Shown in pieces: positions 10,256 to 25,436 of a stretch of DNA of 64,000 bases. A program made the translations under genes and the position numbers. The notes under the pieces are model-generated. The model had not been told where the DNA came from. It did no database searches and saw only the letters and a list, made by a program, of their open reading frames with translations. Origin of the DNA: Deltaproteobacteria bacterium (GTDB taxonomy: Bacteria > Desulfobacterota > Dissulfuribacteria > Dissulfuribacterales > QOAL01); assembly GCA_026995935.1 (NCBI GenBank), contig JALWNK010000019.1:1-64000 (forward strand), given 5' to 3'. Positions within the stretch are counted from its first letter, which is position 1; every line of letters begins with the position of its first letter.

Positions 10256-10948
10256 ATGTCAAAAGCCTCCATCTCCGTGATTATTCCTACAGTCAACGAG
10301 ATGGAAAACCTGAAACGGTGCATAACCGCAGTCAGAGCAGCCAGCAACACAGAAATAATAGTAGTTGACGGCAAAAGCAGAGATAAAACCAGGGAGATAG
10401 CCTCAGACTTAGGTGTAAGGGTCATAGGGACGGATAGGTCAAGGGGGCTTCAAATGAATCTTGGTGCCGAAAAGGCCTCATCTGAAATACTCCTTTTTCT
10501 TCATGCTGACACCCTGGTTCCAGCCGGCTTTTCAAAGGAGATAAGAAATATACTGAAAAGAGCGCCTGGGGCGGTAGGGGCCTTTGGCCTGTCCATTGAC
10601 GCTCCTGGCATCTCGTACAGGATCATAGAGTTCTTCGTGGGCCTACGCTCCAATTACCTGAAAATGGTCTATGGGGACCAGGCCATCTTTACTAAAAGAG
10701 AAACCTTTAGGGCCTTGGGAGGCTTTCCGGATCAGCCTCTCATGGAGGACCTTGAATTTATCAGGCAGGCACGGCGAAGACGCCCCATTATTGTTTCAAA
10801 GCTAAAGGTCAGGACATCTGCCAGAAGATGGCAAAGGCTTGGCCCCCTTAAGACCACGCTTCTTAACCAGTTACTCATCATGGCTTACCTGGCAGGCGTT
10901 TCCCCCAAGAGCCTTTCAAGAATTTATTACAGGAAAAGGAGAAAATGA
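10256..10948 (+). CDS. TIGR04283-type glycosyltransferase, rSAM/selenodomain-associated family 2
   Basis: SVIIPTVNEMENLKRCI; VVDGKSRDKT; FLHADTLVP; GDQAIFTKRETF. Confidence 0.85.
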   Translation: MSKASISVIIPTVNEMENLKRCITAVRAASNTEIIVVDGKSRDKTREIASDLGVRVIGTDRSRGLQMNLGAEKASSEILLFLHADTLVPAGFSKEIRNILKRAPGAVGAFGLSIDAPGISYRIIEFFVGLRSNYLKMVYGDQAIFTKRETFRALGGFPDQPLMEDLEFIRQARRRRPIIVSKLKVRTSARRWQRLGPLKTTLLNQLLIMAYLAGVSPKSLSRIYYRKRRK

Positions 10949-10949
10949 T

Positions 10950-13900
10950 TTGACTGATCCACACCTTAGACCAATACCCACAAAAACTATTGGGACAAAC
11001 AAGGGTGAAAGCAGCCTCTGGGTAGTGCCAGAAGGCCCCTTTTGGTTCGTGCCAGGCCCTGTCACCGAAAGCATTCTTAAAAGATGCAAGGATGATTTAA
11101 GCAGGAACAAACTGTCAAGGGCCATAAAAAAGGAAACTGGTTTCACGGAAACCGTCTCCCAGATTGAGGCAGAAAGACTCCTTGACGCATTATCCTTTAA
11201 CTTCCCAGGCCCTTACAGGGGTCGGGCAGAACGAGGTCTCAATAAGCTTTCAGAGGTGTGGTTTCACCTGACAGACGCCTGCAACCTTTCTTGTTCCCAC
11301 TGCCTTTTCGGCATGAACAAAAAGGGGGCAAGAAGGCTTTCAAGGGAAAAGGTAGAGGCTGTTATTAGGGAGGCCAGGGGTCTTGGATGCAGGCTCATCT
11401 GCTTTACAGGGGGTGAGCCATTCCTCTATCCAGATTTCCCAGGGCTTCTAAGGTGGATTCTCTCCCTGGATGAAAGCATATCCGTTGCCATCTTGACTAA
11501 CGGAATCCTTGCAGGCGGCCTTGTGGACAGCCTTTCACCACAAGAGGTGTCCCGCATTCATCTACAGGTAAGCCTTGACGGGCAAAAACCCCACCATGAT
11601 GCCCAAAGAGGAGGCGGCACCTATGACAGAACAGTTGATGCCATAAGGAGGCTCGTTGATGCGGGATTTTCCGTATCAATTGCCATGGCAGTAACTGGAG
11701 AAAACATGGAGTCCATGAAGGAGATGCCTGAAATTGCCCACGCACTAGGGGTAGCGGGCATTCACTTTCAGTATCTCATAAAGCGAGGGCTAGGAAAGGA
11801 GACCAAGGAAGCTCCAGTAAGCCTCCTTGCAAAGGGGATGTTAGATGCCCATCACGCAGCCAAAAAACATGGCATCACCATAGACAATGTGGAAGCACTG
11901 AGAAGCCAGGTGTTTACTCCGGCTGGCACAAGGTTTGATCTTGGAAATGCAGGATGGGAAAGCCTTGCGGTTGGTCCTGACGGATACGTTTACCCCACCC
12001 CTGCCCTTGTGGACAGCCAGGAACTGTGTGCCGGGCATGTCATGGAGGGCCTTGAAAAAGTATGGAGAAAAAGCGCCCTTTTTAAGAGGCTAAGAAACCT
12101 TTCGCTTCTTGATTCAAAGGCAGCATGCAGCAACCCCTACACGCTCATTACCGGTGGCGGGGACATCGACCACTGCCTTTTCGTAAAAAACGGTCGCCTC
12201 TTCCTTGGTGAAGACCCGTATCAAGAACTCTACAGGGTCATCATAGAGGAACTTATACAGGAAGAATGTTTGGGACTTCCCGTTCCTCAGGGGCCTGGGA
12301 TGGTTCTTCGCATGGGAGAGATAGTCGTGCAGTGCCATAGTTCTTCTGAGGTGAACTTCACCCACTGTAACTGCCTCCTTTCCCTTGGTTCAGGCAAGGA
12401 AAGCCACCAGATCGTAAGGGAATTTTACGGGAAAAGGGCAAGGGAAACAGATGAGCTCATCCGTAATCCCGCAATATTCAAAGACGATTCCATGGGCTTC
12501 ATACCTGATGAGGCAAAGGTAAGGATGTATGGGTGCGGAAGCCCTGTGGAGGACGCAGACCTGCTAAGAGGGCAAAGTGTGGTGGATCTTGGCTGCGGAA
12601 GCGGGGTGGAATGCTTTATTGCAGCAAAAAAGGTTGGGCCAGAAGGAAAGGTCGTTGGCATTGACATGACCGAGGAGATGCTTGAGCTTGCAAAAGGGGC
12701 ATACAAAAAGGTCAAAGAGAATCTTGGCTATGACAATGTCTCCTTCAAAAGGGGGTTTCTTGAGGAACTTCCCATTGATTCAAACTCTGTGGATGTTGTC
12801 ATATCAAACTGCGTTCTCAATCTCAGCAAGAACAAGAGAAAGGTCTTTGGGGAGATACGGCGCATTCTGAGGCCAGGGGGCAAGCTCGTCGTCTCGGACG
12901 TTGTTACAGAAAAAGAGCCGTCTTTAGAAATCCGTGCAAACCAACAGCTCCGCGGCCAGTGCATTGGAGGGGCATGGGTGGAAAATCAGCTTTTTTCCAT
13001 GCTAAAGGACGCCGGTTTTAACTACGGCAAGGTGGTAAAACGCTTTCCCTACAAGGAAGTTGGCGGGCACCAGTTCTTCTCAGTAACCTTTTATGCGCTT
13101 AAGCCTGGTTCAAAAGACCTCAGCGCCAGAGCAGAGGCCATCTACGCCGGCCCTTTTCAGGCAGTTGTTACAGATGACAATCAGGTCCTTATGAGGGGCA
13201 AAAGGGCACAGATCAATGTGGAGAGAGGACTTGACGAAGACTTCCTTTCAAGATCAGGAATTCTCCTCCTTGATGACAAGGGCGTTACTGTCGTGAACCA
13301 GAAAGGGCAGAGCTGCTGTTCTTGTACACCTTTTTCAACGACCTCGGCCCTGCCTCCTGACACAGGATGCCTAGTTTGTGGGCTTCCCCTTTCCTACCTG
13401 GAAGACCATCAGGAAAGGGTGTGCGTTATCTGTGGAGAGAGGAAGACGGCAAATGCAGTTTGCCAGGAAGGCCACTTCGTATGTGACTCGTGTCACGCCC
13501 AGGGACCCCTTGATTGGATAAAAAAGGCGTGTCTTTCAAGCAGGAAGACGGACATGATTTCACTCCTTGTAAAGATACGCTCAAATCCCCTTCTTCCCAT
13601 CCATGGGCCGGAGCATCACGCAATGATCCCCGGTATAATCCTTTCCACTTACCGAAACCTCGGAGGGGAAATTCCGGAAGGGGCTATTTTAAAGGCCATT
13701 GATAGGGGCGCTTCAATACCTGGAGGGGCCTGTGGTTTCATGGGTACCTGTGGTGCAGCTACAGGGGCAGGAATAGCCCTAAGTGTCATCATTGGGTCAA
13801 CGCCTGTAAAGGCCCAGGAAAGACAGCTGGTTCAGCTCTGGGTTTCTGAAATACTTAAGAGCCTGGCTGGTTTCAGGGCAGGAAGGTGCTGCCAGAGGGA

Positions 13901-14165
13901 ATGCTTCACCACCCTCAAGGAAGTCTCAAGTATTACAAAGGGGCATTTTTCATTCGAACTCCTTGCTCAAAAGGAACTTGTATGCTCCCAGTTCAGGCTT
14001 AACAAGGAATGCATAAGGCTTGACTGCCCGCTTTTTCCGGCCGCAAAGGGCTCACGGGCAGCGATCAGGGGCCGAATCGACCCCTCCGTCATGGATACCA
14101 TCGGGGCAGGTGGGCTTGCCATAAAAGGAAACCACGGCCTTGGCGGGAACGGAGGACGAAGATGA
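10950..14165 (+). CDS. Multidomain radical SAM / ArsM-like methyltransferase / DUF5714-like fusion protein
   Basis: CNLSCSHC radical SAM motif; methyltransferase VVDLGCGSGVECFIAAKKVG with ArsM-like NCVLNLS and QCIGGAW; C-terminal HGPEHHAMIPGIIL..CGFMGTCGAATGAG; TTG start with AAAGGAG upstream. Confidence 0.8.
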   Translation: MTDPHLRPIPTKTIGTNKGESSLWVVPEGPFWFVPGPVTESILKRCKDDLSRNKLSRAIKKETGFTETVSQIEAERLLDALSFNFPGPYRGRAERGLNKLSEVWFHLTDACNLSCSHCLFGMNKKGARRLSREKVEAVIREARGLGCRLICFTGGEPFLYPDFPGLLRWILSLDESISVAILTNGILAGGLVDSLSPQEVSRIHLQVSLDGQKPHHDAQRGGGTYDRTVDAIRRLVDAGFSVSIAMAVTGENMESMKEMPEIAHALGVAGIHFQYLIKRGLGKETKEAPVSLLAKGMLDAHHAAKKHGITIDNVEALRSQVFTPAGTRFDLGNAGWESLAVGPDGYVYPTPALVDSQELCAGHVMEGLEKVWRKSALFKRLRNLSLLDSKAACSNPYTLITGGGDIDHCLFVKNGRLFLGEDPYQELYRVIIEELIQEECLGLPVPQGPGMVLRMGEIVVQCHSSSEVNFTHCNCLLSLGSGKESHQIVREFYGKRARETDELIRNPAIFKDDSMGFIPDEAKVRMYGCGSPVEDADLLRGQSVVDLGCGSGVECFIAAKKVGPEGKVVGIDMTEEMLELAKGAYKKVKENLGYDNVSFKRGFLEELPIDSNSVDVVISNCVLNLSKNKRKVFGEIRRILRPGGKLVVSDVVTEKEPSLEIRANQQLRGQCIGGAWVENQLFSMLKDAGFNYGKVVKRFPYKEVGGHQFFSVTFYALKPGSKDLSARAEAIYAGPFQAVVTDDNQVLMRGKRAQINVERGLDEDFLSRSGILLLDDKGVTVVNQKGQSCCSCTPFSTTSALPPDTGCLVCGLPLSYLEDHQERVCVICGERKTANAVCQEGHFVCDSCHAQGPLDWIKKACLSSRKTDMISLLVKIRSNPLLPIHGPEHHAMIPGIILSTYRNLGGEIPEGAILKAIDRGASIPGGACGFMGTCGAATGAGIALSVIIGSTPVKAQERQLVQLWVSEILKSLAGFRAGRCCQRECFTTLKEVSSITKGHFSFELLAQKELVCSQFRLNKECIRLDCPLFPAAKGSRAAIRGRIDPSVMDTIGAGGLAIKGNHGLGGNGGRR

Positions 14166-15630: not shown

Positions 15631-16425
15631 TCAAAAGGAATAGGTCCCAGGCTTGCCTGTAAAAGGGAGAATCAAGAGACCCTTTATATCAGAAGGAGGA
15701 TCTTTCTGGTACTGGGAAAGCCCGATTGGCGTTTTCAATACCCCAAGCTTTGGTAGTTTTTTATAGGTTCCAAAGAGCCTGTCCCATATGGACAGGTTAA
15801 ACCCAAAATTTGAATTGGTCTCCTTGATGATAACCGAGTGGTGTACCCTGTGCATGTCTGGGGTGACAATCAAGAGTCTGAGAAAGCGGTCCATTCTCTC
15901 TGGAAGCGCAAGATTCGAATGGGTAAACATGGACATGGCGTTGAGGATCACCTCAAAGGCCACCACACCCGTAACCGGCGGCCCAAGGGCTGCTGCAGCC
16001 CCTGCCTTTAAAAGCGCTGAAAGGAGAATCTCAACCGGATGGAATCTAAGGCCTGTTGTGAAATCAAGGTGGTTGTCACTGTGGTGTACCATGTGAAGAC
16101 GCCACAGAGCGGGTACTGCGTGAAATAGCACGTGCTGAAAATAGATGAGAAGGTCAAAAAATACCACTGACAGTATGACCTGCCAGTAAGGCCCCACCCC
16201 TAGAAAGGAAAATAGTGCCCAGCCTCTTTCCCTGACCATGTAAGCCAAAGAGACAGCCTTTGCCGGAACGAAGAAGAGTATGATCCCGCTTCCAATGGCT
16301 ATGAGCATAAGATTTGAAAACCTTCTTTTCAGGTTTTTATCAGGCGCCTTCTTTCTTGGAGAGATATGCTCTGCCAGACCAAGGATCACAAAACACAGGG
16401 CAAATACCAGAAACCTGACTACCAT
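15631..16425 (-). CDS. Sterol desaturase / fatty acid hydroxylase family membrane protein
   Basis: Histidine boxes HVLFH, HMVHHSDNHLD, HRVHHS. Confidence 0.88.
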   Translation of the reverse strand: MVVRFLVFALCFVILGLAEHISPRKKAPDKNLKRRFSNLMLIAIGSGIILFFVPAKAVSLAYMVRERGWALFSFLGVGPYWQVILSVVFFDLLIYFQHVLFHAVPALWRLHMVHHSDNHLDFTTGLRFHPVEILLSALLKAGAAAALGPPVTGVVAFEVILNAMSMFTHSNLALPERMDRFLRLLIVTPDMHRVHHSVIIKETNSNFGFNLSIWDRLFGTYKKLPKLGVLKTPIGLSQYQKDPPSDIKGLLILPFTGKPGTYSF

Positions 16426-16436
16426 GGCTCCACTAT

Positions 16437-16961
16437 TTACTTCCTTAGATATTTTCTACAGGACAGTTCAAAAAGCCTTATGATCTCCTGTCTTTTGTGG
16501 CAAAGGCTTGTCATGAGAGACTCAAATCTCTCGTATGCAGCCCTGTCCCTTGCCTCAAACCTGTCAAAGACCTCATCACAAAAGTACCAAGTGCACCGGT
16601 AGGACCTGTAGCATCTTTTGAGGGTACAGCCCTCTTTGCCCAGAAACTGGCAAGGAGAGGTATCCTGCGCTGAAAAATCAAAGCTTGGAATATGATGTCC
16701 CATGGCTGCAAGTATTATAAGGTCCTCAAAGTCTGGGAAACCGTGACGATTGACACAACAGGGATGATCACACTCTTTGCATATGGACTCCGTATATTCT
16801 ACAAAATATGGTTCGAGGGCCTTGTACGTCTCGTTAAGGCCCTTTGAAAGAGAGGCTATGCGCTGGGCCATCTCCTTATCATCCAGCATGAGCTTTTCAA
16901 TAAAACTAATGGCATCTTGCAGGGAACATTGGTTTCCAAAAACCACCTCTGGGAAATCCAT
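16437..16961 (-). CDS. YkgJ-like Cys-cluster protein
   Basis: CKECDHPCCVNRHG ... CQFLGKEGCTLKRCYRSYRCTWYFC. Confidence 0.65.
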   Translation of the reverse strand: MDFPEVVFGNQCSLQDAISFIEKLMLDDKEMAQRIASLSKGLNETYKALEPYFVEYTESICKECDHPCCVNRHGFPDFEDLIILAAMGHHIPSFDFSAQDTSPCQFLGKEGCTLKRCYRSYRCTWYFCDEVFDRFEARDRAAYERFESLMTSLCHKRQEIIRLFELSCRKYLRK

Positions 16962-17130: not shown

Positions 17131-17718
17131 TCAACCTGCCTGACCCTTTAGCCCAACCGCGTAAAGCAAAAGGTTTATCGCAAAGTGGATGACAACCCCG
17201 GCAACAAAGATGGCCACTCCATCCTGAAACGTTGGCACATAGAAAAAGAGCATAAATAACATGCAGCCTATTACAGAGTCTGCCTGGTCCACGAATTTGA
17301 AAAGATTGCCAACAAACCCGGACCTGTTACGGCCTGGAGGGATTCCAATGCGCCTTTTGACAAAACTGTTCGGTAGTTCAAAAAGTACGTAACCAAGACC
17401 CCACAGGCATCCATAAATCCATTCTTCAAGGGGGGAAAAGCGCCCAAAGTCAAAAAGAGAAAGGCCGTGGGCCCAGTCAAAGGCTCTATCCAGAAACCCG
17501 AAAAACCACATCCAGAAACCCGTCAGAAAGATCATTCCAAGAAAACCCTTCCACGTCTTGTTATCGCCAAAGAGCCTGCGCCCGTCCCTATATACGGCCC
17601 CTCCATCCATTGGCCTCTTAAGCCAGGTAAAGACAGGTAGCTTAACCAGGATCATGTTACAGACTCCGGCAAGGATCACTGGAAGGAGCGTGTATGTAAT
17701 ACGCACCATGTAATTCAT
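17131..17718 (-). CDS. CDP-archaeol synthase (CarS)-like CTP transferase
   Basis: Polytopic; FGDNKTWKGFLGMI and DQADSVIGCMLF motifs. Confidence 0.8.
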   Translation of the reverse strand: MNYMVRITYTLLPVILAGVCNMILVKLPVFTWLKRPMDGGAVYRDGRRLFGDNKTWKGFLGMIFLTGFWMWFFGFLDRAFDWAHGLSLFDFGRFSPLEEWIYGCLWGLGYVLFELPNSFVKRRIGIPPGRNRSGFVGNLFKFVDQADSVIGCMLFMLFFYVPTFQDGVAIFVAGVVIHFAINLLLYAVGLKGQAG

Positions 17719-18638
17719 GCCCGCCTCCTTTTACCTATCCTGGAGCCGTACCTCACAAGGGTCTCAATGCCCTTACTGGAATAGTGCATTATATCCTGGT
17801 CCAGTTCCACCATTCCCTGCTCAAAAATGAGGATAATGGTGGAGCCTCCCATCTCAAAGTAGCCCTTCTCCTGGCCCCTTGAAAAGCACCCGCCTTCCCT
17901 TAAATGCTGGTGAATCCTGCCAACGGCCATTGCTCCTATGTCAACATGGATCACCCTGCCGAAGTTGGCTGTTTCAAGCACAACATATTCCCTGTCATTA
18001 CCCTGAAGAATTTTCAGATTGTGCATCAAGGCAAGTGGGCTTACCGAATGAAGCCTCCCCTGCACGTGAACAACCCGCCCGTGACATCCTGAGTCTATGT
18101 AACAAAACCTGTGATAGTCCATGGGGGCAAGGCGTATCTTAACGCAGGTGCCATCTGTCCAATCTCCCTGTGGCAGGCTTCCGCCAAGGAGCTCTTCTAA
18201 AGTAAAGGAGCTCCCCTTAACAGACATCACAAGATCCTGGTCTACCCTGCATGCCTCGAGACGTCCGTCTGAGGCAGATACAAGCACATCAGGCTCATGT
18301 CTTACAGGCCTTGCTTCAGGCCGAAGCCTCCTTTTAAAAAAGTCATTGAAGCTCTCATAGGATTCTACAGGCCTTTCGAGCTGGCTGGTGTCTATACCAT
18401 AGCTTTCTATAAAGGGGCGTATCTTTGCCCTGCTTGAAGGCCTGTTTTGTAACCAGCCGTAGAGTCTGGAAAATATCTTTCTGCTAAGAAATATCCTGGC
18501 AACCAGCCTTCCGGGAAATGTCCCATAAACCAGGCGCATAAAACCTTCCTCAAAGACCTCTTCCCTTTGAAGGCATGCCTTTTCCCTGTTATAGACATGT
18601 ATAGTGCAATCGCTTCTGATGAAACCCTGGACCTTCAC
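17715..18638 (-). CDS. psd: Phosphatidylserine (or archaetidylserine) decarboxylase
   Basis: YESFNDFFKRRLRPEARPV; APMDYHRFCYIDSG; FEMGGSTIILIFE pyruvoyl cleavage motif. Confidence 0.9.
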   Translation of the reverse strand: MKVQGFIRSDCTIHVYNREKACLQREEVFEEGFMRLVYGTFPGRLVARIFLSRKIFSRLYGWLQNRPSSRAKIRPFIESYGIDTSQLERPVESYESFNDFFKRRLRPEARPVRHEPDVLVSASDGRLEACRVDQDLVMSVKGSSFTLEELLGGSLPQGDWTDGTCVKIRLAPMDYHRFCYIDSGCHGRVVHVQGRLHSVSPLALMHNLKILQGNDREYVVLETANFGRVIHVDIGAMAVGRIHQHLREGGCFSRGQEKGYFEMGGSTIILIFEQGMVELDQDIMHYSSKGIETLVRYGSRIGKRRRA

Positions 18639-18652
18639 CCTATATCTCTCCT

Positions 18653-19282
18653 TTAGTTAAAGGCCCGTAAAAGCCAAAAGGAAATGACAAGGAGACCCAG
18701 CACGGAAAAAAACAGATAAAATACGCCACCTGGTTTCTTTATGGGTATTTTCAATACAAAAAAGAACCCCAGGGCCAACATGCAGACACGCACGAGCAGG
18801 CTTGAAACCGAGCCAGGAAGCGCAGTGCCAATGGTCATTACGATAGGAATAAAAAGGCTTGAATAGGTAACGGGAAGGCCCATGTAGTGGGTAAACGGCC
18901 CCTGGCTTTCCCTTTGGAGCAGGTTAAAGTAGGCAAGACGAATCACCGCGCAGGAACAATAGAATATAAACAAGAGGTAGTCCGGCCACGAGTTGAATCC
19001 CCAGTGTAGAAGAAGCACCACAGGAACCGCCCCAAAGTTGACCGCATCCACAGTCGAGTCGATGTACAGGCCAAAGACTGATTCCTCTTCAGTTGTCTCA
19101 AGCCGCCTTGCCACAAAACCGTCAAAGAGATCGCAAAGCCCTGCCATTACAAAACAGGCCATGGCAAGATTCAGCCTGTGGTTAAAAGAGAGCATACATG
19201 CTGAAAGAGCGCTGATCAGCCCAAGCATGGTTACCAGCAGTGGCAGGTTGTAGATTCCAACCAGATATTTCATGAATACCAT
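18653..19282 (-). CDS. CDP-alcohol phosphatidyltransferase, PssA-like
   Basis: LCDLFDGFVARRLETTEEESVFGLYIDSTVD matches DxxDGxxAR-x8-GxxxDxxxD. Confidence 0.9.
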   Translation of the reverse strand: MVFMKYLVGIYNLPLLVTMLGLISALSACMLSFNHRLNLAMACFVMAGLCDLFDGFVARRLETTEEESVFGLYIDSTVDAVNFGAVPVVLLLHWGFNSWPDYLLFIFYCSCAVIRLAYFNLLQRESQGPFTHYMGLPVTYSSLFIPIVMTIGTALPGSVSSLLVRVCMLALGFFFVLKIPIKKPGGVFYLFFSVLGLLVISFWLLRAFN

Positions 19283-19283
19283 C

Positions 19284-20141
19284 CTAACTCCCCGTTAGGG
19301 CCGAAGCCACCCCCTGCACGATTATGGTAGCCATTGGCACCATAAAGAACAGGAATCCCGACACGTAGAGCCTCCTGGCAACACTCCTTGCAGGATTTTT
19401 CAGAAGGGCCAAAAAAATCCTGGCAATCACCAATGACATGATGGCAAGCGCTATGAGAAAGAGAATGCCTAAACCCCCTTCCAACCAGGCCAGATAACCG
19501 GTGACTAAGGAGCAGAGATAAAAGAGAGCACCCAGAACTGCACAGGGCCTTGGCCCAAGATGGCTGTAAAACGTGATCGAGCTCGCCTGCCCTGTCGTGT
19601 TTGATTCGGAAACACTATGTCCGTAGTCATGCCCCACAACAGCACTCCAAATAAAAATCGAAAGTAAGATCACAGAAATAGACGGCCTCTTGCCGCCAAG
19701 AAGGCAGGCATAGACTGGCACCAATGGAAAAACCATGTTCACCAGCAAGGGTTGCCAGGCAACAATCCCCCTTCTCACCCGGTAGTAGACAAAATAAAAG
19801 AGGGCCCCAAGGAGCAAAAACATGAATACCACAGGCGACGGATTAAAGACGAGCATGACGAGAAAAAAGAACGCACTCCAGGCCTTAAGGTGCCCAGGCT
19901 CGATCCTTCCTGACACAAGCCCCCTTTCTGGACTGGTTACTGCGTCAACCTCAATATCAGACAGGTCGTCAACCATACGAAGTACAAGCAGGGCCATGAA
20001 AGTGGTGGCAAGACCCCGGAGCCAATCCGAAACATCCAGGCGTACCAGGACGGCCGGCGCTCCAAACAGCACAAGGGAAAGCGGCACCGCAACCCAAATG
20101 GGGAACCTCTCCCGGATAAAGGCGGAAAGTCCGCTACGCAT
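19284..20141 (-). CDS. UbiA-family prenyltransferase
   Basis: VDDLSDIEVDAVTSPERGLVSGRI first Asp-rich motif; polytopic; second Asp-rich motif looks degenerate. Confidence 0.82.
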   Translation of the reverse strand: MRSGLSAFIRERFPIWVAVPLSLVLFGAPAVLVRLDVSDWLRGLATTFMALLVLRMVDDLSDIEVDAVTSPERGLVSGRIEPGHLKAWSAFFFLVMLVFNPSPVVFMFLLLGALFYFVYYRVRRGIVAWQPLLVNMVFPLVPVYACLLGGKRPSISVILLSIFIWSAVVGHDYGHSVSESNTTGQASSITFYSHLGPRPCAVLGALFYLCSLVTGYLAWLEGGLGILFLIALAIMSLVIARIFLALLKNPARSVARRLYVSGFLFFMVPMATIIVQGVASALTGS

Positions 20142-22725
20142 GGCCCTTCACCCCCTGGCCTTTTCCATCCAGGTGGCGGGATGAAAAGAGAGTCACCGTT
20201 CCGGAAGTTCCGTCTATCTCCACATCCTGGCCATCACGAAGTATGGAACAAGCGCCCTCAAGACCTACAACCGCCGGTATGCCGAATTCCCGTGCCACTA
20301 TGGAGCCGTGCGAAAGCATACCACCCCTTTCCAAGACAAGTCCGCCTGCCAGAAAAAAGAGCGGGGTCCAGCCCGGATCCGTTGTCCTTGCCACCATGAT
20401 TTCGCCACGCCGAAGCTCATGGCCCATTGACGGGTCAAGGACCACCCTTACCCTTCCCCTTGCCTTGCCGTGGGAAACTCCAAGCCCCCTGAGGGAAGCG
20501 GCATCAGAGTGCTTCTGAACAGAAACTTCCGGTTTCCAATATTCGGCCCAATCTGTAAGGAAGAATTCCGGGGGCTCATACTTTTCACTCTTCTTAATGG
20601 CTCTTTTCCTGAGAGCCACCAGTTCGGGTATGAGCTCAGGAAACTGGAATTTGCCATCCACCAAGTCGCGCAACTCGGAAAGGTGCAGATAGAATATCTC
20701 CTCTTGCTCGGCCAGATGGCCCCTTTCCACAAGATGGCTTGCAAGGAGAAGGCATGTCCGCCTGATCTCACCAAAGAGCATACTCTGGAGAAGCCTTCCC
20801 CGCTCCCGAAGCTGCATGGCCTTGCGGGCAGAAGACAACACCCTTTTTAGAACCAAACGTTTCCAAAAGGGAAGGGCCTTGATTTCTGGGGGAAGGTCAG
20901 AATCTGGCCCGCTCCTATTCCCCTTGACCTGGCAGGATGAGTCTGGAGATGGCCTCTTTGAAAGCATGTAGCCCCTGACCAGGTCCCAGAACAGGTCGTG
21001 GCGTTCCTCAAAGGTGGGATAGACCAGCATGCAGTCATGGTAGCAGCGCCCTCCAAATTCCTGCATAAAGCCTTCCAGGGCCTTTTGCTCACTGGGGCCA
21101 AGACTGCCTTCCAGCTCCTGGTATCTCCTATCCTTTAGGAGCCGTGCAAGCTCGCTATCCCCCTTAATCATCTGGGCCATATTCCATATGTATCTTACAG
21201 GTTCAGTGCTCTTTACCTCCACCCCTTCCATAAGGGCTGCAAGCATCTGCCCGGTCTCACCTTTAACCCAGCGCTCCACCAGCAGCTCCAGCAGGCCGGT
21301 TCCAACCATGACCTTGAGATCTGCAAGCACACATGCCTGCCACCGCTGGTCCACAAACCTGAAAATGTCATCCAGTACACCAAGACACCCCTTTGGAGAA
21401 GGATCGTCAGAAGCCTCTTTGCGCCACAGGGCCTTCCTCCTGGAAAAGGCAGGTTCCGCCTGGTCCATTCTTCTACCAGAAACGGCAAGGCAGCGGAAGA
21501 AACGAGGCCAGAAAAGGGTTGCATCCGCCCACTTTCGAAACGTTCCCCCTGATGCATGCCCCAATCCACCGTGCCCCAGGCTCACCGTGGTCTTTTGGCC
21601 TATGTAGGTATCAAGGAACCTGGCAAGCCACTTGCCTATGGGAAAGAGATACATCACCCGGTACCAGTTGTTCAGGTTGTAGTATATACGTCCGCAGTGT
21701 ATCCCATTCAGGCACTCAACCACGTTTCCCAATCTGGCAAGCCTGGCATCGCTCCAGCCAAAAAGCCTAAGGGCGCATCTCATGTATGCTGTATAGAAGG
21801 CATCCACTGCCGACCATGCAAGAGGGGCAAGTGGCCTTGGGAAGTTCTCGGCCATGTTGGCATTGGTCCACGCAACGCTGTGGCTTCCGCAAATGCCGGT
21901 CACCGGCCTAGACTGAAGGATGTACAGCTCATCTTTGGTGCAGCACCACTCCATATCCACCGGTTGGGAAAACATCCTTTCTGCCCCAAGGGCCAGGTCA
22001 CGCAACCGGATGAGATGGGGGACCAGAGTGGTTGGCACACCTTCTGGAACCGTTTTTGAACTTCTGCCAAAACGGATACGTTCAGGCACGACCTTTCCAG
22101 ACACCAGCTTTTCCCCAAGGCCGCTGACCCATTCCACCACCAGGTGATCAGAGGACCTGTTCAGGGGATCAACGGTAAAGATCACGCCTGAAAATTCCGG
22201 CTGGATCTGCTCCTGAATGATGACTCCCATGGTGGGCACCTGTCTGGAGCTCCTTTTTTCAAGATAGGCAGACACTGGAGAGGCAAACCGGCTTGCCCAG
22301 CACCTCTTTATGGCCTGGGACAGGTCACTTTTGCAAACATCAAGCACTGTCTGAAACTGCCCTGCCATGGAAAATTCTGCGCCATCCTCTGCACATGAAG
22401 AGGATCGAACCGCAAACCTCTTTCCCGCAGATGAATCTTTCATTGCCTGGGAAATCGCTTCCTGTACCCCTTTGGGCAACGTGCCTTTAATGACGTCTTC
22501 GGTAGTGATTTCTTTCCCTTCAGGGACGAAGCCGTTTTCCCTGCAAAATATCTCAAAGGCCCTTTCCAGGACCACCCATCCACATGGCACAGGCAAGCCT
22601 GCCTCCATCATGGCCGCCAGCCTTTGGGCCTTTGATCCCACCTGTTCCAGAGGTTGACTGCATGCATCCCGCAGGTTTATCACCAAAGGAGCAGGCCTTG
22701 ATCTTCCAAACTTGATGAGGTCCAT
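20134..22725 (-). CDS. PEP synthase / rifampin phosphotransferase-like three-domain phosphotransferase
   Basis: ATP-grasp FAVRSSSCAEDGAEFSMAGQFQTVL; GVIFTVDP; mobile His domain LVLERGGMLSHGSIVAREFGIPAVVGL. Confidence 0.88.
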   Translation of the reverse strand: MDLIKFGRSRPAPLVINLRDACSQPLEQVGSKAQRLAAMMEAGLPVPCGWVVLERAFEIFCRENGFVPEGKEITTEDVIKGTLPKGVQEAISQAMKDSSAGKRFAVRSSSCAEDGAEFSMAGQFQTVLDVCKSDLSQAIKRCWASRFASPVSAYLEKRSSRQVPTMGVIIQEQIQPEFSGVIFTVDPLNRSSDHLVVEWVSGLGEKLVSGKVVPERIRFGRSSKTVPEGVPTTLVPHLIRLRDLALGAERMFSQPVDMEWCCTKDELYILQSRPVTGICGSHSVAWTNANMAENFPRPLAPLAWSAVDAFYTAYMRCALRLFGWSDARLARLGNVVECLNGIHCGRIYYNLNNWYRVMYLFPIGKWLARFLDTYIGQKTTVSLGHGGLGHASGGTFRKWADATLFWPRFFRCLAVSGRRMDQAEPAFSRRKALWRKEASDDPSPKGCLGVLDDIFRFVDQRWQACVLADLKVMVGTGLLELLVERWVKGETGQMLAALMEGVEVKSTEPVRYIWNMAQMIKGDSELARLLKDRRYQELEGSLGPSEQKALEGFMQEFGGRCYHDCMLVYPTFEERHDLFWDLVRGYMLSKRPSPDSSCQVKGNRSGPDSDLPPEIKALPFWKRLVLKRVLSSARKAMQLRERGRLLQSMLFGEIRRTCLLLASHLVERGHLAEQEEIFYLHLSELRDLVDGKFQFPELIPELVALRKRAIKKSEKYEPPEFFLTDWAEYWKPEVSVQKHSDAASLRGLGVSHGKARGRVRVVLDPSMGHELRRGEIMVARTTDPGWTPLFFLAGGLVLERGGMLSHGSIVAREFGIPAVVGLEGACSILRDGQDVEIDGTSGTVTLFSSRHLDGKGQGVKGHA

Positions 22726-25436
22726 TAGTTCATACCCTTCATGATAAAGGTGGCCAGATTGGTGTAGACACGCTCCAGAAAATCGAGCCTTAGTATATTG
22801 TGGCCCAGGAGATAGAGGTTCATCCTGACCGCTCCCAGAAACAGGCCATTCAGGTCTAGTACCTCAAGAAAATCCTTCCTGGAAATCTCCCTTCCGGTTT
22901 TCTGCCGGAGGTGTTCCAGATACAGGTCTGCATAGTGTATGTATTCCTCCCTGGAAAAATCCGGCCCCAGGACAAACACCAGGAACTCTATCAGGTCATG
23001 TTGGGGATTCTGGAAAAAGGCAAGTTCCCAATCATAAAGTACTGTGACTGGATGAGACTTCCGCCTTCTAAGACACAGGTTTCTGGGATTAAAGTCGTTG
23101 TGGGTAAGGGTGCATGGAAACGACAACATGCGTTCCAGATGATCGTCCAGATTGTTCAGAAAATCGTGGTAAATTCCCTTTAAGGCAGGTGTTACAAGCT
23201 CTGGGTACCTGACACTGTTGAACCTGGTGAGCTCCTTTAAAAGCTCAAGGGAGGCAGATACGAAGTCCCTGTCGAGACGCTGGACTCCCATTCTTTCAAG
23301 TCCATCCCCCCTTTCGAAGTAGACCGCATGAAGGGCTGCCATGTCTCTAAGTACTGTCTCTATATCGGAACTGGGCCACCTGTTTATCCTTCCAATGGAA
23401 TCGAAGAGACGGCAATCAGTAAGGTCCTCCATGAGGATGGCGTAGATTTCCCTTTCAGGCTCAACCATGGTGCCGTAAATCCTGGGGGCATATTCCAGAA
23501 GGCGGCTGTCTGCGTGGCGGTAAACCCTGATTTCCCTCAGGTGGCTGTCATCAAGGCAGAACACATGGGACTGGGACTCATACAGCCCCGGGAGCCTGTC
23601 CTCTCCGGTAAGTCTTGCAACCTTAAGCCCTATCTCATCAAGTTGTCTGCCTGAAGCCTTGAGTTTCAAAAAGGTGTCTAATTGTCTTGTGCCCTTACTG
23701 CTGTCAAGGGTCAATCTGTAACGATAAAGGCCATGGGCGCTGTTTGATTCCCTGGTGATGGAAGATATTATTCCTGAACAACTTGCACGGGGCAGCATCT
23801 GGCTTTTCACCACACGGCCCCTGCCTTCGCCAATGAGCCTGGTGAAGAAACTGTTGTCTATCTCAGACCTGGATATGGCCCTGGTGGGCCTGTTTCGTCC
23901 AAGCCTTTCATGTGCGCTCACAAAATCGTTGCTGACAATGGCAGCCCCGGTAGATATGTCAAGGGCCAGGCAGGCGGCAGCTATTATCTCGGCCAGTCTG
24001 AAGAGCTTACCCTGGCCATAGCAGCCCATGAGCTCGAGACACTCCTTTTGCACAGGCAGACTCGTGCCCCCGCCCACTGTACCTATTACAAGAGAAGGCA
24101 GATAGGCAGTAAATAAGAGGCCGTCATCCTTCTGCACTGCCTTGAAAACACCGCATGAAGATTCGTGAACGCAGGCGATATCCTGACCAGTAGCCGTGAA
24201 TATCCCGGCTATGACATTGGCAAAGTTTATGTTGGAACCTACCATCCCGATCTGACTGGCAGCCATCTCTGCCTCTGACCAAATACGCACAAACTGTTCC
24301 GGTTTCACCCTGAGTATCCTGCGCAGAATGCTGCCTGGTACGAAGCAGGTGGCGGTGACCCCTACCCCTCTGCCCTCCACAAAATTCTGGAAATTGACCT
24401 TCTTATCGCCAGACATATTGGCTTCAATGTTGTACCAGAGAAAATCAATAAAGGGCTCTTCCTTTATCTGCTCCTCTATCCACTGGCAGGCCACCCAGGT
24501 ACAGGCCGAGGTCATGTTCTGGCCTGATGCATCCCCGGTTGAAAAGTAAAAACACAAATGAAGTGCATTTCCAAAGACCAGGGGACGAATCCTATCAAGC
24601 CGTGCAACAGAGGAGACGCTCTCCGCCTTTTCCTTTATCTGTGCAAAGTGGTCAAGGACCCATCTTTCAAGGTTCACAGCCCCCTCGAGACTTTCGCAAA
24701 AGAATACCGGCGACCTGACCATGCACTGCCTGAGTACGTGCACATGGATTCCTCCTGCAAGGCTGCAGGCCTTTGCTCCCCTGCTAATGGAACTCACAAG
24801 GGCTCCTTCAGTGGTGGCAATGGGAAGCGTGACAAAACCCTGGGTATATGTACCATCAACCAGCAGCGGCCCAGCAAGGCCCACCGGGACCTGAACCGCA
24901 CCGATATAGTTCTCGATATTGCCGGCAAGGCTCTCTGGCTCCATGAAGGACCTGGCAATGTTTTCAAGCCTGGCTCCAGACACTGCCCTTGCCCACTCAA
25001 GCCTGGCCCTTATTGCATGCTCTGAATAGTGCTCCTTTTTTGAAAATCTGGGAATCCTTCCAGGATCTGCCTCCCTGCTAGGTTCCAAGGCCTCCATATC
25101 AAAAGGCCAATTTGCGCCCCCTCTGAGTGCATCCCTGTTCTTGCTTCTGCAGCCTGATAGCTCAATGACAGTGGAATCCCCGTTTGAGCGAACCTGCATG
25201 ACCTTGAGTCCTCCGACCCTGGTGCTGTTTCCATTTTCTCCCAGGCAGATGTGAGCCACTTCCATGCCTGGAGTAAGCCGAATGCGCTCTCCAACCCGTA
25301 TTTCGAGACCGTCATCCCAGTATCCGGCCAAATGACCTGAGTAAATTTTGCTTCCCACGGTAAAAGATACAGATGGCCGTCTTACCTCATGAAAGATCTT
25401 TTTCCCTGGCATTACCTGCCCTCCTGGAAAATACAA
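22725..25436 (-). CDS. HMG-CoA reductase-like enzyme fused to a C-terminal APH/choline-kinase-like domain, with an N-terminal extension
   Basis: NIENYIGAVQVPVGLAGPL; TTEGALVSSISRG; GDASGQNMTS; GDKKVNF; GQDIACVHESS; GTVGGGTSLP; FVSAHERLGRNR; C-terminal LTHNDFNPRNLCL and VLYDWELAFFQNPQHDL. Confidence 0.85.
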   Translation of the reverse strand: MYFPGGQVMPGKKIFHEVRRPSVSFTVGSKIYSGHLAGYWDDGLEIRVGERIRLTPGMEVAHICLGENGNSTRVGGLKVMQVRSNGDSTVIELSGCRSKNRDALRGGANWPFDMEALEPSREADPGRIPRFSKKEHYSEHAIRARLEWARAVSGARLENIARSFMEPESLAGNIENYIGAVQVPVGLAGPLLVDGTYTQGFVTLPIATTEGALVSSISRGAKACSLAGGIHVHVLRQCMVRSPVFFCESLEGAVNLERWVLDHFAQIKEKAESVSSVARLDRIRPLVFGNALHLCFYFSTGDASGQNMTSACTWVACQWIEEQIKEEPFIDFLWYNIEANMSGDKKVNFQNFVEGRGVGVTATCFVPGSILRRILRVKPEQFVRIWSEAEMAASQIGMVGSNINFANVIAGIFTATGQDIACVHESSCGVFKAVQKDDGLLFTAYLPSLVIGTVGGGTSLPVQKECLELMGCYGQGKLFRLAEIIAAACLALDISTGAAIVSNDFVSAHERLGRNRPTRAISRSEIDNSFFTRLIGEGRGRVVKSQMLPRASCSGIISSITRESNSAHGLYRYRLTLDSSKGTRQLDTFLKLKASGRQLDEIGLKVARLTGEDRLPGLYESQSHVFCLDDSHLREIRVYRHADSRLLEYAPRIYGTMVEPEREIYAILMEDLTDCRLFDSIGRINRWPSSDIETVLRDMAALHAVYFERGDGLERMGVQRLDRDFVSASLELLKELTRFNSVRYPELVTPALKGIYHDFLNNLDDHLERMLSFPCTLTHNDFNPRNLCLRRRKSHPVTVLYDWELAFFQNPQHDLIEFLVFVLGPDFSREEYIHYADLYLEHLRQKTGREISRKDFLEVLDLNGLFLGAVRMNLYLLGHNILRLDFLERVYTNLATFIMKGMN

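Follow-up and report, generated by a model that had tools for sequence, protein, structure and literature searches.

A compact bacterial operon that may encode a dedicated pathway for an ether- or alkyl-type phospholipid

Introduction

The window analysed here comprises positions 1 to 64,000 of contig 19 (JALWNK010000019.1; 67.7 kb) from the deltaproteobacterial assembly GCA_026995935.1 (2.59 Mb, 100% complete, 0.7% contaminated). It carries six genes on the minus strand that encode a 3-hydroxy-3-methylglutaryl-CoA (HMG-CoA) reductase (HMGR)-like enzyme fused to a kinase, a phosphoenolpyruvate (PEP)-synthase-like phosphotransferase (PEPs), a UbiA-family transferase, a phosphatidylserine synthase-like enzyme (Pss), a phosphatidylserine decarboxylase (Psd) and a CarS-like cytidylyltransferase. 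It is quite probable that this operon is a dedicated second lipid pathway. We further propose, with a probability of roughly 0.35, that it represents a way of making ether lipids not yet described in bacteria: a four-electron acyl-thioester reductase derived from HMGR, two phosphorylations and an ether-forming UbiA would constitute an exchangeable core that is combined with either CarS/Pss/Psd or BtaA-like modules. An earlier note on this DNA had suggested a prenyl-glycerol or other isoprenoid lipid with a serine or ethanolamine head group, made by an archaeal-type route starting from mevalonate; of this, the dedicated operon with its UbiA related to digeranylgeranylglyceryl phosphate synthase (DGGGPS), CarS, Pss and Psd stands, and the mevalonate and the archaeal glycerol-1-phosphate (G1P) parts do not.

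A six-gene operon kept in order between genomes

The six open reading frames (ORFs) between 25436 and 17131 are complete, intact and packed head to tail, with junctions of -1, -8, +1, +14 and -4 bp in order, and a Pfam search bore out the family assignment of each protein. The listed start codon of the first ORF is a TTG at 25436, and the same frame has an ATG 24 bp inside the gene. A UbiA related to the operon copy is found in 4 of 20 genomes of the family, each time in the same operon. All six genes keep their order in G003, a Deltaproteobacteria metagenome-assembled genome which was the only near relative with the UbiA returned by a contig scan, and in G011, where the genes flanking the operon differ. 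Five of the six are seen in G001, and five (PEPs, UbiA, Pss, Psd and CarS, at 44-69% identity) in G435 (locus L126) from another family; in both, the contig ends inside the PEPs gene. This retention of order in other genomes implies that the operon is neither chance nor contamination, and together with the ORF positions and the Pfam matches it upholds the tight six-gene unit originally proposed. Among the copies UbiA is the most divergent protein, and CarS and HMGR rank among the best conserved. Searches of the open-access literature turned up no account of these genes in combination.

An HMGR relative that has lost its carboxylate-binding lysine

The fusion protein matches HMG-CoA_red (E = 1e-103) over residues ~140-515 and an APH/EcKL-type kinase (E = 1e-10) over residues ~630-850. 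Its N-terminal extension of ~110 residues, partly common to other HMGR-like proteins, has no Pfam match, so that a resemblance of residues 1-110 to PilZ, noticed by eye, is unconfirmed as a label. Alignment to solved HMGRs shows that the catalytic E559, D690, K691, D767 and H866 (human numbering) are kept. In HMG-CoA reductase the HMG carboxylate is held by R590, S684 and K735, residues that are named together in papers on statin binding; in the fusion R590 is kept, S684 has become Glu and K735 Ala, and H752 is replaced by Asn. Lys735 is lost in all bacterial homologues recovered, that is, in 20 loci of the phylum and in Streptomyces, Vibrio, Alteromonas, Sinorhizobium and Roseinatronobacter, and most of them have an acidic residue, Asp or Glu, at 684; three solved HMGRs have both Ser684 and Lys735. 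A simple reading of these residues is that the acidic side chain at 684, opposite R590, would stand in for the substrate carboxylate, implying a substrate that has none at this place. The enzyme very likely does not make mevalonate, and it is probably an HMGR relative retooled toward another alcohol.

The neighbours of related genes are varied. The Streptomyces fusion of HMGR and kinase, whose gene lies on a plasmid and is flanked by those for a GH3 acyl-adenylating protein and a thymidylate-kinase-like protein, groups with the fusion of the window in an HMGR tree that is informative only for the grouping of kinase-fused forms, as long branches limit the rest. On a Sinorhizobium meliloti plasmid (L109:11998-13242) an HMGR-like gene sits amid genes for acyl-CoA carboxylase beta and biotin carboxylase, which hints at other acyl-CoAs as substrates. 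In Alteromonas macleodii (plasmid, L108:6430-13191) the HMGR-like gene is clustered with genes for a thermostable hemolysin family protein, an AMP-binding protein, a haem-oxygenase-like iron enzyme and a short-chain dehydrogenase, and in many genomes of one family (f41; L039-L044 and L048-L049) a stand-alone HMGR-like gene (~535 aa) adjoins a gene for LPG_synthase_C (PF09924). A further fusion (L038:7690-10431, genome G364) was rejected as another copy of the operon: its catalytic residues are altered (D690I, K691R, H866Q), and it has neither UbiA nor PEPs nearby. It adjoins sensor kinases, with a Pss-like gene in the vicinity.

UbiA, the phosphotransferase and the head-group enzymes

The operon UbiA had been likened to archaeal DGGGPS, and by sequence, profile and fold it comes nearest to that enzyme: its closest solved protein is MjDGGGPS (E = 6e-7 by sequence, 6e-13 with the family profile), which is also the best match of its predicted fold (pLDDT 88; Foldseek E = 1e-7, TM 0.73). 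Chlorophyll synthase is second nearest in the profile search, and the solved phosphoribosyltransferase 8j8j is among the fold matches. Motif 1 is intact (D58-x3-D62-x3-D66), but motif 3 reads D-x2-H, its second and third Asp being lost, which makes an assignment to the DGGGPS type tentative. The corresponding residues of MjDGGGPS, D180, D183 and D187, are important in binding and catalysis (PMC9385802). Of the two further UbiAs in the genome, one is matched in the other genomes of the family that were tested, including the operon-free G004, and the other is related to decaprenyl-phosphate phosphoribosyltransferase. Searches of plasmids with UbiA and CarS gave no matches.

The name PEP-synthase-like is justified in part: ATP-grasp and phosphohistidine domains are there (PPDK_N and PEP-utilizers in Pfam), but the PEP-binding domain is absent and the nearest solved structure is rifampicin phosphotransferase.

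The Pss-like protein retains the DG..AR..G...D...D motif and resembles archaetidylserine synthase as much as PssA, and the Psd-family protein has its processing motif. The CarS-like protein matches PF01864 (5e-15) and 5guf and has the KRR..PG..DQxD motifs; its score lies under the NCBIfam equivalog cut-off. The operon genes are not the only Pss/Psd set of the genome, since a check for a second, housekeeping one found a separate PssA (125 bits to TIGR00473, above the cut-off) directly beside a separate Psd at 8733-9791 of contig C78. That separate pair occurs in all genomes compared, and Psd is present in two copies in each of the four family carriers and in one copy in the operon-free G004. 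With a UbiA closest to archaeal DGGGPS and a CarS-family gene beside it, a prenyl- or alkyl-glycerol phospholipid with a serine or ethanolamine head group is a fair lead.

A recurring core with other head-group genes

In loci that we call type 2, the head-group genes are of another kind. The order in G298 is NMT/GNAT-like protein, AMP-binding ligase, HMGR-like, UbiA, PEPs-like, DUF3419 (BtaA-like) and a membrane protein; G446 and G626 carry all of these genes and G496 carries part of them. The set also occurs in the alphaproteobacterium Roseinatronobacter sp. S2, on a plasmid whose record has its first base inside the HMGR-like gene. Type 2 loci thus have an acyl-AMP ligase and a BtaA-like enzyme in place of CarS, Pss and Psd, and their UbiAs read E-x2-R at motif 3. 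A mixed locus in G461 (L125) unites UbiA, PEPs, HMGR-like and DUF3419 genes with a Psd homologue and an acyltransferase-like gene. This recurrence of HMGR-like, UbiA and PEPs implies that the core travels as a set and that the head-group genes change. A phytol or dolichol kinase (VTE5-like) was considered for the 442-aa membrane protein encoded in type 2 loci; sequence, profile and fold searches, the last with a model of low confidence, gave nothing, and the label is not used.

Searches for mevalonate and archaeal lipid genes

The earlier note had taken the HMGR-like gene as an entry into the mevalonate pathway, a view that fails on the host genome as well as on the altered carboxylate site: HMG-CoA synthase was looked for and is not found, no mevalonate-type GHMP kinases or decarboxylase were detected, the sole GHMP kinase gene is IspE, and IspH of the methylerythritol phosphate (MEP) pathway is present. 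The note had left the remaining archaeal enzymes to be sought outside the window. Geranylgeranylglyceryl phosphate (GGGP) synthase (PF01884) has no match in the genome, although the search controls did match, and G1P dehydrogenase is likewise absent, the three Fe-ADH_2 matches all being other enzymes (AroB and an alcohol dehydrogenase by NCBIfam; the third, in a 606-aa protein, PurD judging from its sequence). Lipids of the archaeal, G1P-based kind are therefore unlikely. For geranylgeranyl reductase the outcome is mixed: an FAD protein of the superfamily (TIGR02032, 179 bits) is encoded at 65690-66844 of contig 19 (L008:5690-6844), ~40 kb from the operon and just outside the window. Its link may be to menaquinone or to lipids; a search of the operon carriers G003, G001 and G011 detected no such protein.

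Table 1. Genes of the operon, listed in the direction of transcription
Feature	Position	Strand	Basis
HMGR-like reductase + APH/EcKL-type kinase fusion, 903 aa	22725..25436	-	Pfam
PEP-synthase-like phosphotransferase (ATP-grasp + phosphohistidine swivel)	20134..22725	-	Pfam, structure match
UbiA-family transferase	19284..20141	-	Pfam, fold match DGGGP synthase
CDP-alcohol phosphatidyltransferase, PssA / archaetidylserine synthase-like	18653..19282	-	Pfam CDP-OH_P_transf, motif
Phosphatidylserine decarboxylase family	17715..18638	-	Pfam PS_Dcarbxylase, GGST motif
CarS-like (PF01864) CTP:lipid-phosphate cytidylyltransferase	17131..17718	-	Pfam

Downstream of the operon and on the same strand lie genes for an FA_hydroxylase (OlsE-like; 15631-16425), which has no copy close to the operon in locus L006, and for a Cys-rich protein (16437-16961). 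Further on, a single frame of 1108 aa (10839-14165) combines radical SAM, methyltransferase and DUF5714 domains.

Proposed pathway and alternative explanations

We propose that these genes form a dedicated pathway that moves horizontally and makes an ether- or alkyl-type phospholipid. All of its reactions, and the identity of the chain, are read from sequence, and as a complete scheme it has at best an even chance of being right. The HMGR-like domain would reduce an acyl-thioester other than HMG-CoA with four electrons to a primary alcohol, the fused APH kinase would make the alcohol phosphate, and the rifampicin-phosphotransferase-like enzyme would add a further phosphate to give an activated alkyl (di)phosphate. 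UbiA may then move the chain onto a glycerol phosphate (probably a lyso-phosphatidate) at its free hydroxyl group, much as DGGGP synthase does with GGGP. The CarS-like enzyme would form the CDP-lipid, the Pss-like enzyme would attach serine, and decarboxylation by Psd would yield an ethanolamine lipid. An allylic chain, either 2-enoyl or polyprenyl, would fit UbiA chemistry best. Several points weigh against this scheme: the operon has no enzyme for the first ether bond, no saturating reductase accompanies it across genomes, and the loss of Lys735 leaves the identity of the new substrate unspecified. The alteration of motif 3 in UbiA, moreover, means that the diphosphate chemistry, the donor or the donor binding may differ from that of a plain prenyl diphosphate.

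Other explanations draw on the same genes. Salvage of isoprenoids or fatty acids, in which an acid is reduced to an alcohol and rephosphorylated, the diphosphate serves UbiA in making a specialised metabolite and Pss, Psd and CarS act for the same product, would suit the acyl-AMP ligase that type 2 loci have beside HMGR-like, UbiA and PEPs, the GH3 protein in Streptomyces and the profile search in which chlorophyll synthase came second for the UbiAs; yet the operon of the window has no ligase, three head-group genes point to a membrane lipid, and the product class is left unconstrained, so that we regard salvage as unlikely. An archaeal-type isoprenoid lipid, with chains from HMGR-derived mevalonate joined to glycerol phosphate by UbiA and processed by CarS, archaetidylserine synthase and a decarboxylase, is rather improbable. 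The affinities of UbiA and Pss and the presence of a CarS-family gene speak for it, but GGGP synthase, G1P dehydrogenase, HMG-CoA synthase and the mevalonate kinases were not found in the genome, IspH is present, the HMG-binding Lys735 is lost and a gene of the geranylgeranyl reductase superfamily was undetected in three other carriers. Its mevalonate part is already largely refuted, and geranylgeranyl chains derived from the MEP pathway would rescue part of the rest.

The altered motif 3 of both operon types, a motif also altered in the UbiAs of the same genomes that are related to decaprenyl-phosphate phosphoribosyltransferase, and the fold match to 8j8j would fit a UbiA that acts in the manner of that enzyme on a lipid phosphate and gives a sugar-linked lipid with no ether; as the operon UbiA is closest to DGGGPS in sequence, profile and fold and sugar enzymes are absent from both operon types, this is very unlikely. 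About as improbable is ordinary redundancy, that is, an additional phosphatidylethanolamine operon with HMGR and UbiA as accidental neighbours: Pss and Psd have intact motifs and could act on a diacyl CDP-lipid, but the six-gene order is held between genera though the flanks differ, and the core recurs with other head-group genes.

The ether- or alkyl-lipid pathway, if correct, gives HMGR-like genes a concrete role in bacteria that have no mevalonate pathway, ties a DGGGPS-like UbiA and CarS to a bacterial operon lacking GGGP synthase, and provides a candidate route by which some bacteria could form ether lipids. Experimental access is offered by Roseinatronobacter sp. S2, which is in culture and has a sister operon on a plasmid.

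Comparison with known systems

The archaeal glycerophospholipid pathway (GGGPS, DGGGPS, CarS, archaetidylserine synthase and archaetidylserine decarboxylase) resembles the operon in the DGGGPS-closest UbiA, the CarS-family enzyme, the serine transferase and the decarboxylase. It differs in that our genome has no GGGPS, G1P dehydrogenase or mevalonate pathway and the operon UbiA has an altered motif 3, and in that the archaeal route has no equivalent of the fused reductase-kinase or of the phosphotransferase. Because defining features of the archaeal pathway are lacking, we describe the operon as working like that pathway and not as a member of it. With class I HMG-CoA reductase the operon protein shares the fold family and the catalytic residues listed above; unlike it, the protein is changed at positions 735, 684 and 752 and fused to a kinase, in a host with no mevalonate pathway. 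Rifampicin phosphotransferase (5hv1-3, 5fbs-u) and the RedH/PigC ligases have in common with our phosphotransferase the ATP-grasp and phosphohistidine swivel and the missing PEP-binding domain, but in its middle part the similarity is weak. Betaine-lipid synthesis (BtaA, DUF3419) shares its DUF3419 enzyme with the type 2 loci, not with the operon of the window, and those loci add HMGR-like, UbiA, PEPs, ligase and GNAT-like genes. In plant phytol salvage (VTE5, VTE6 and a prenyltransferase) an alcohol is converted to a phosphate and then to a diphosphate which is used by a UbiA-type transferase; although the kinases of the operon are of other families, the proposed scheme would follow the same logic.

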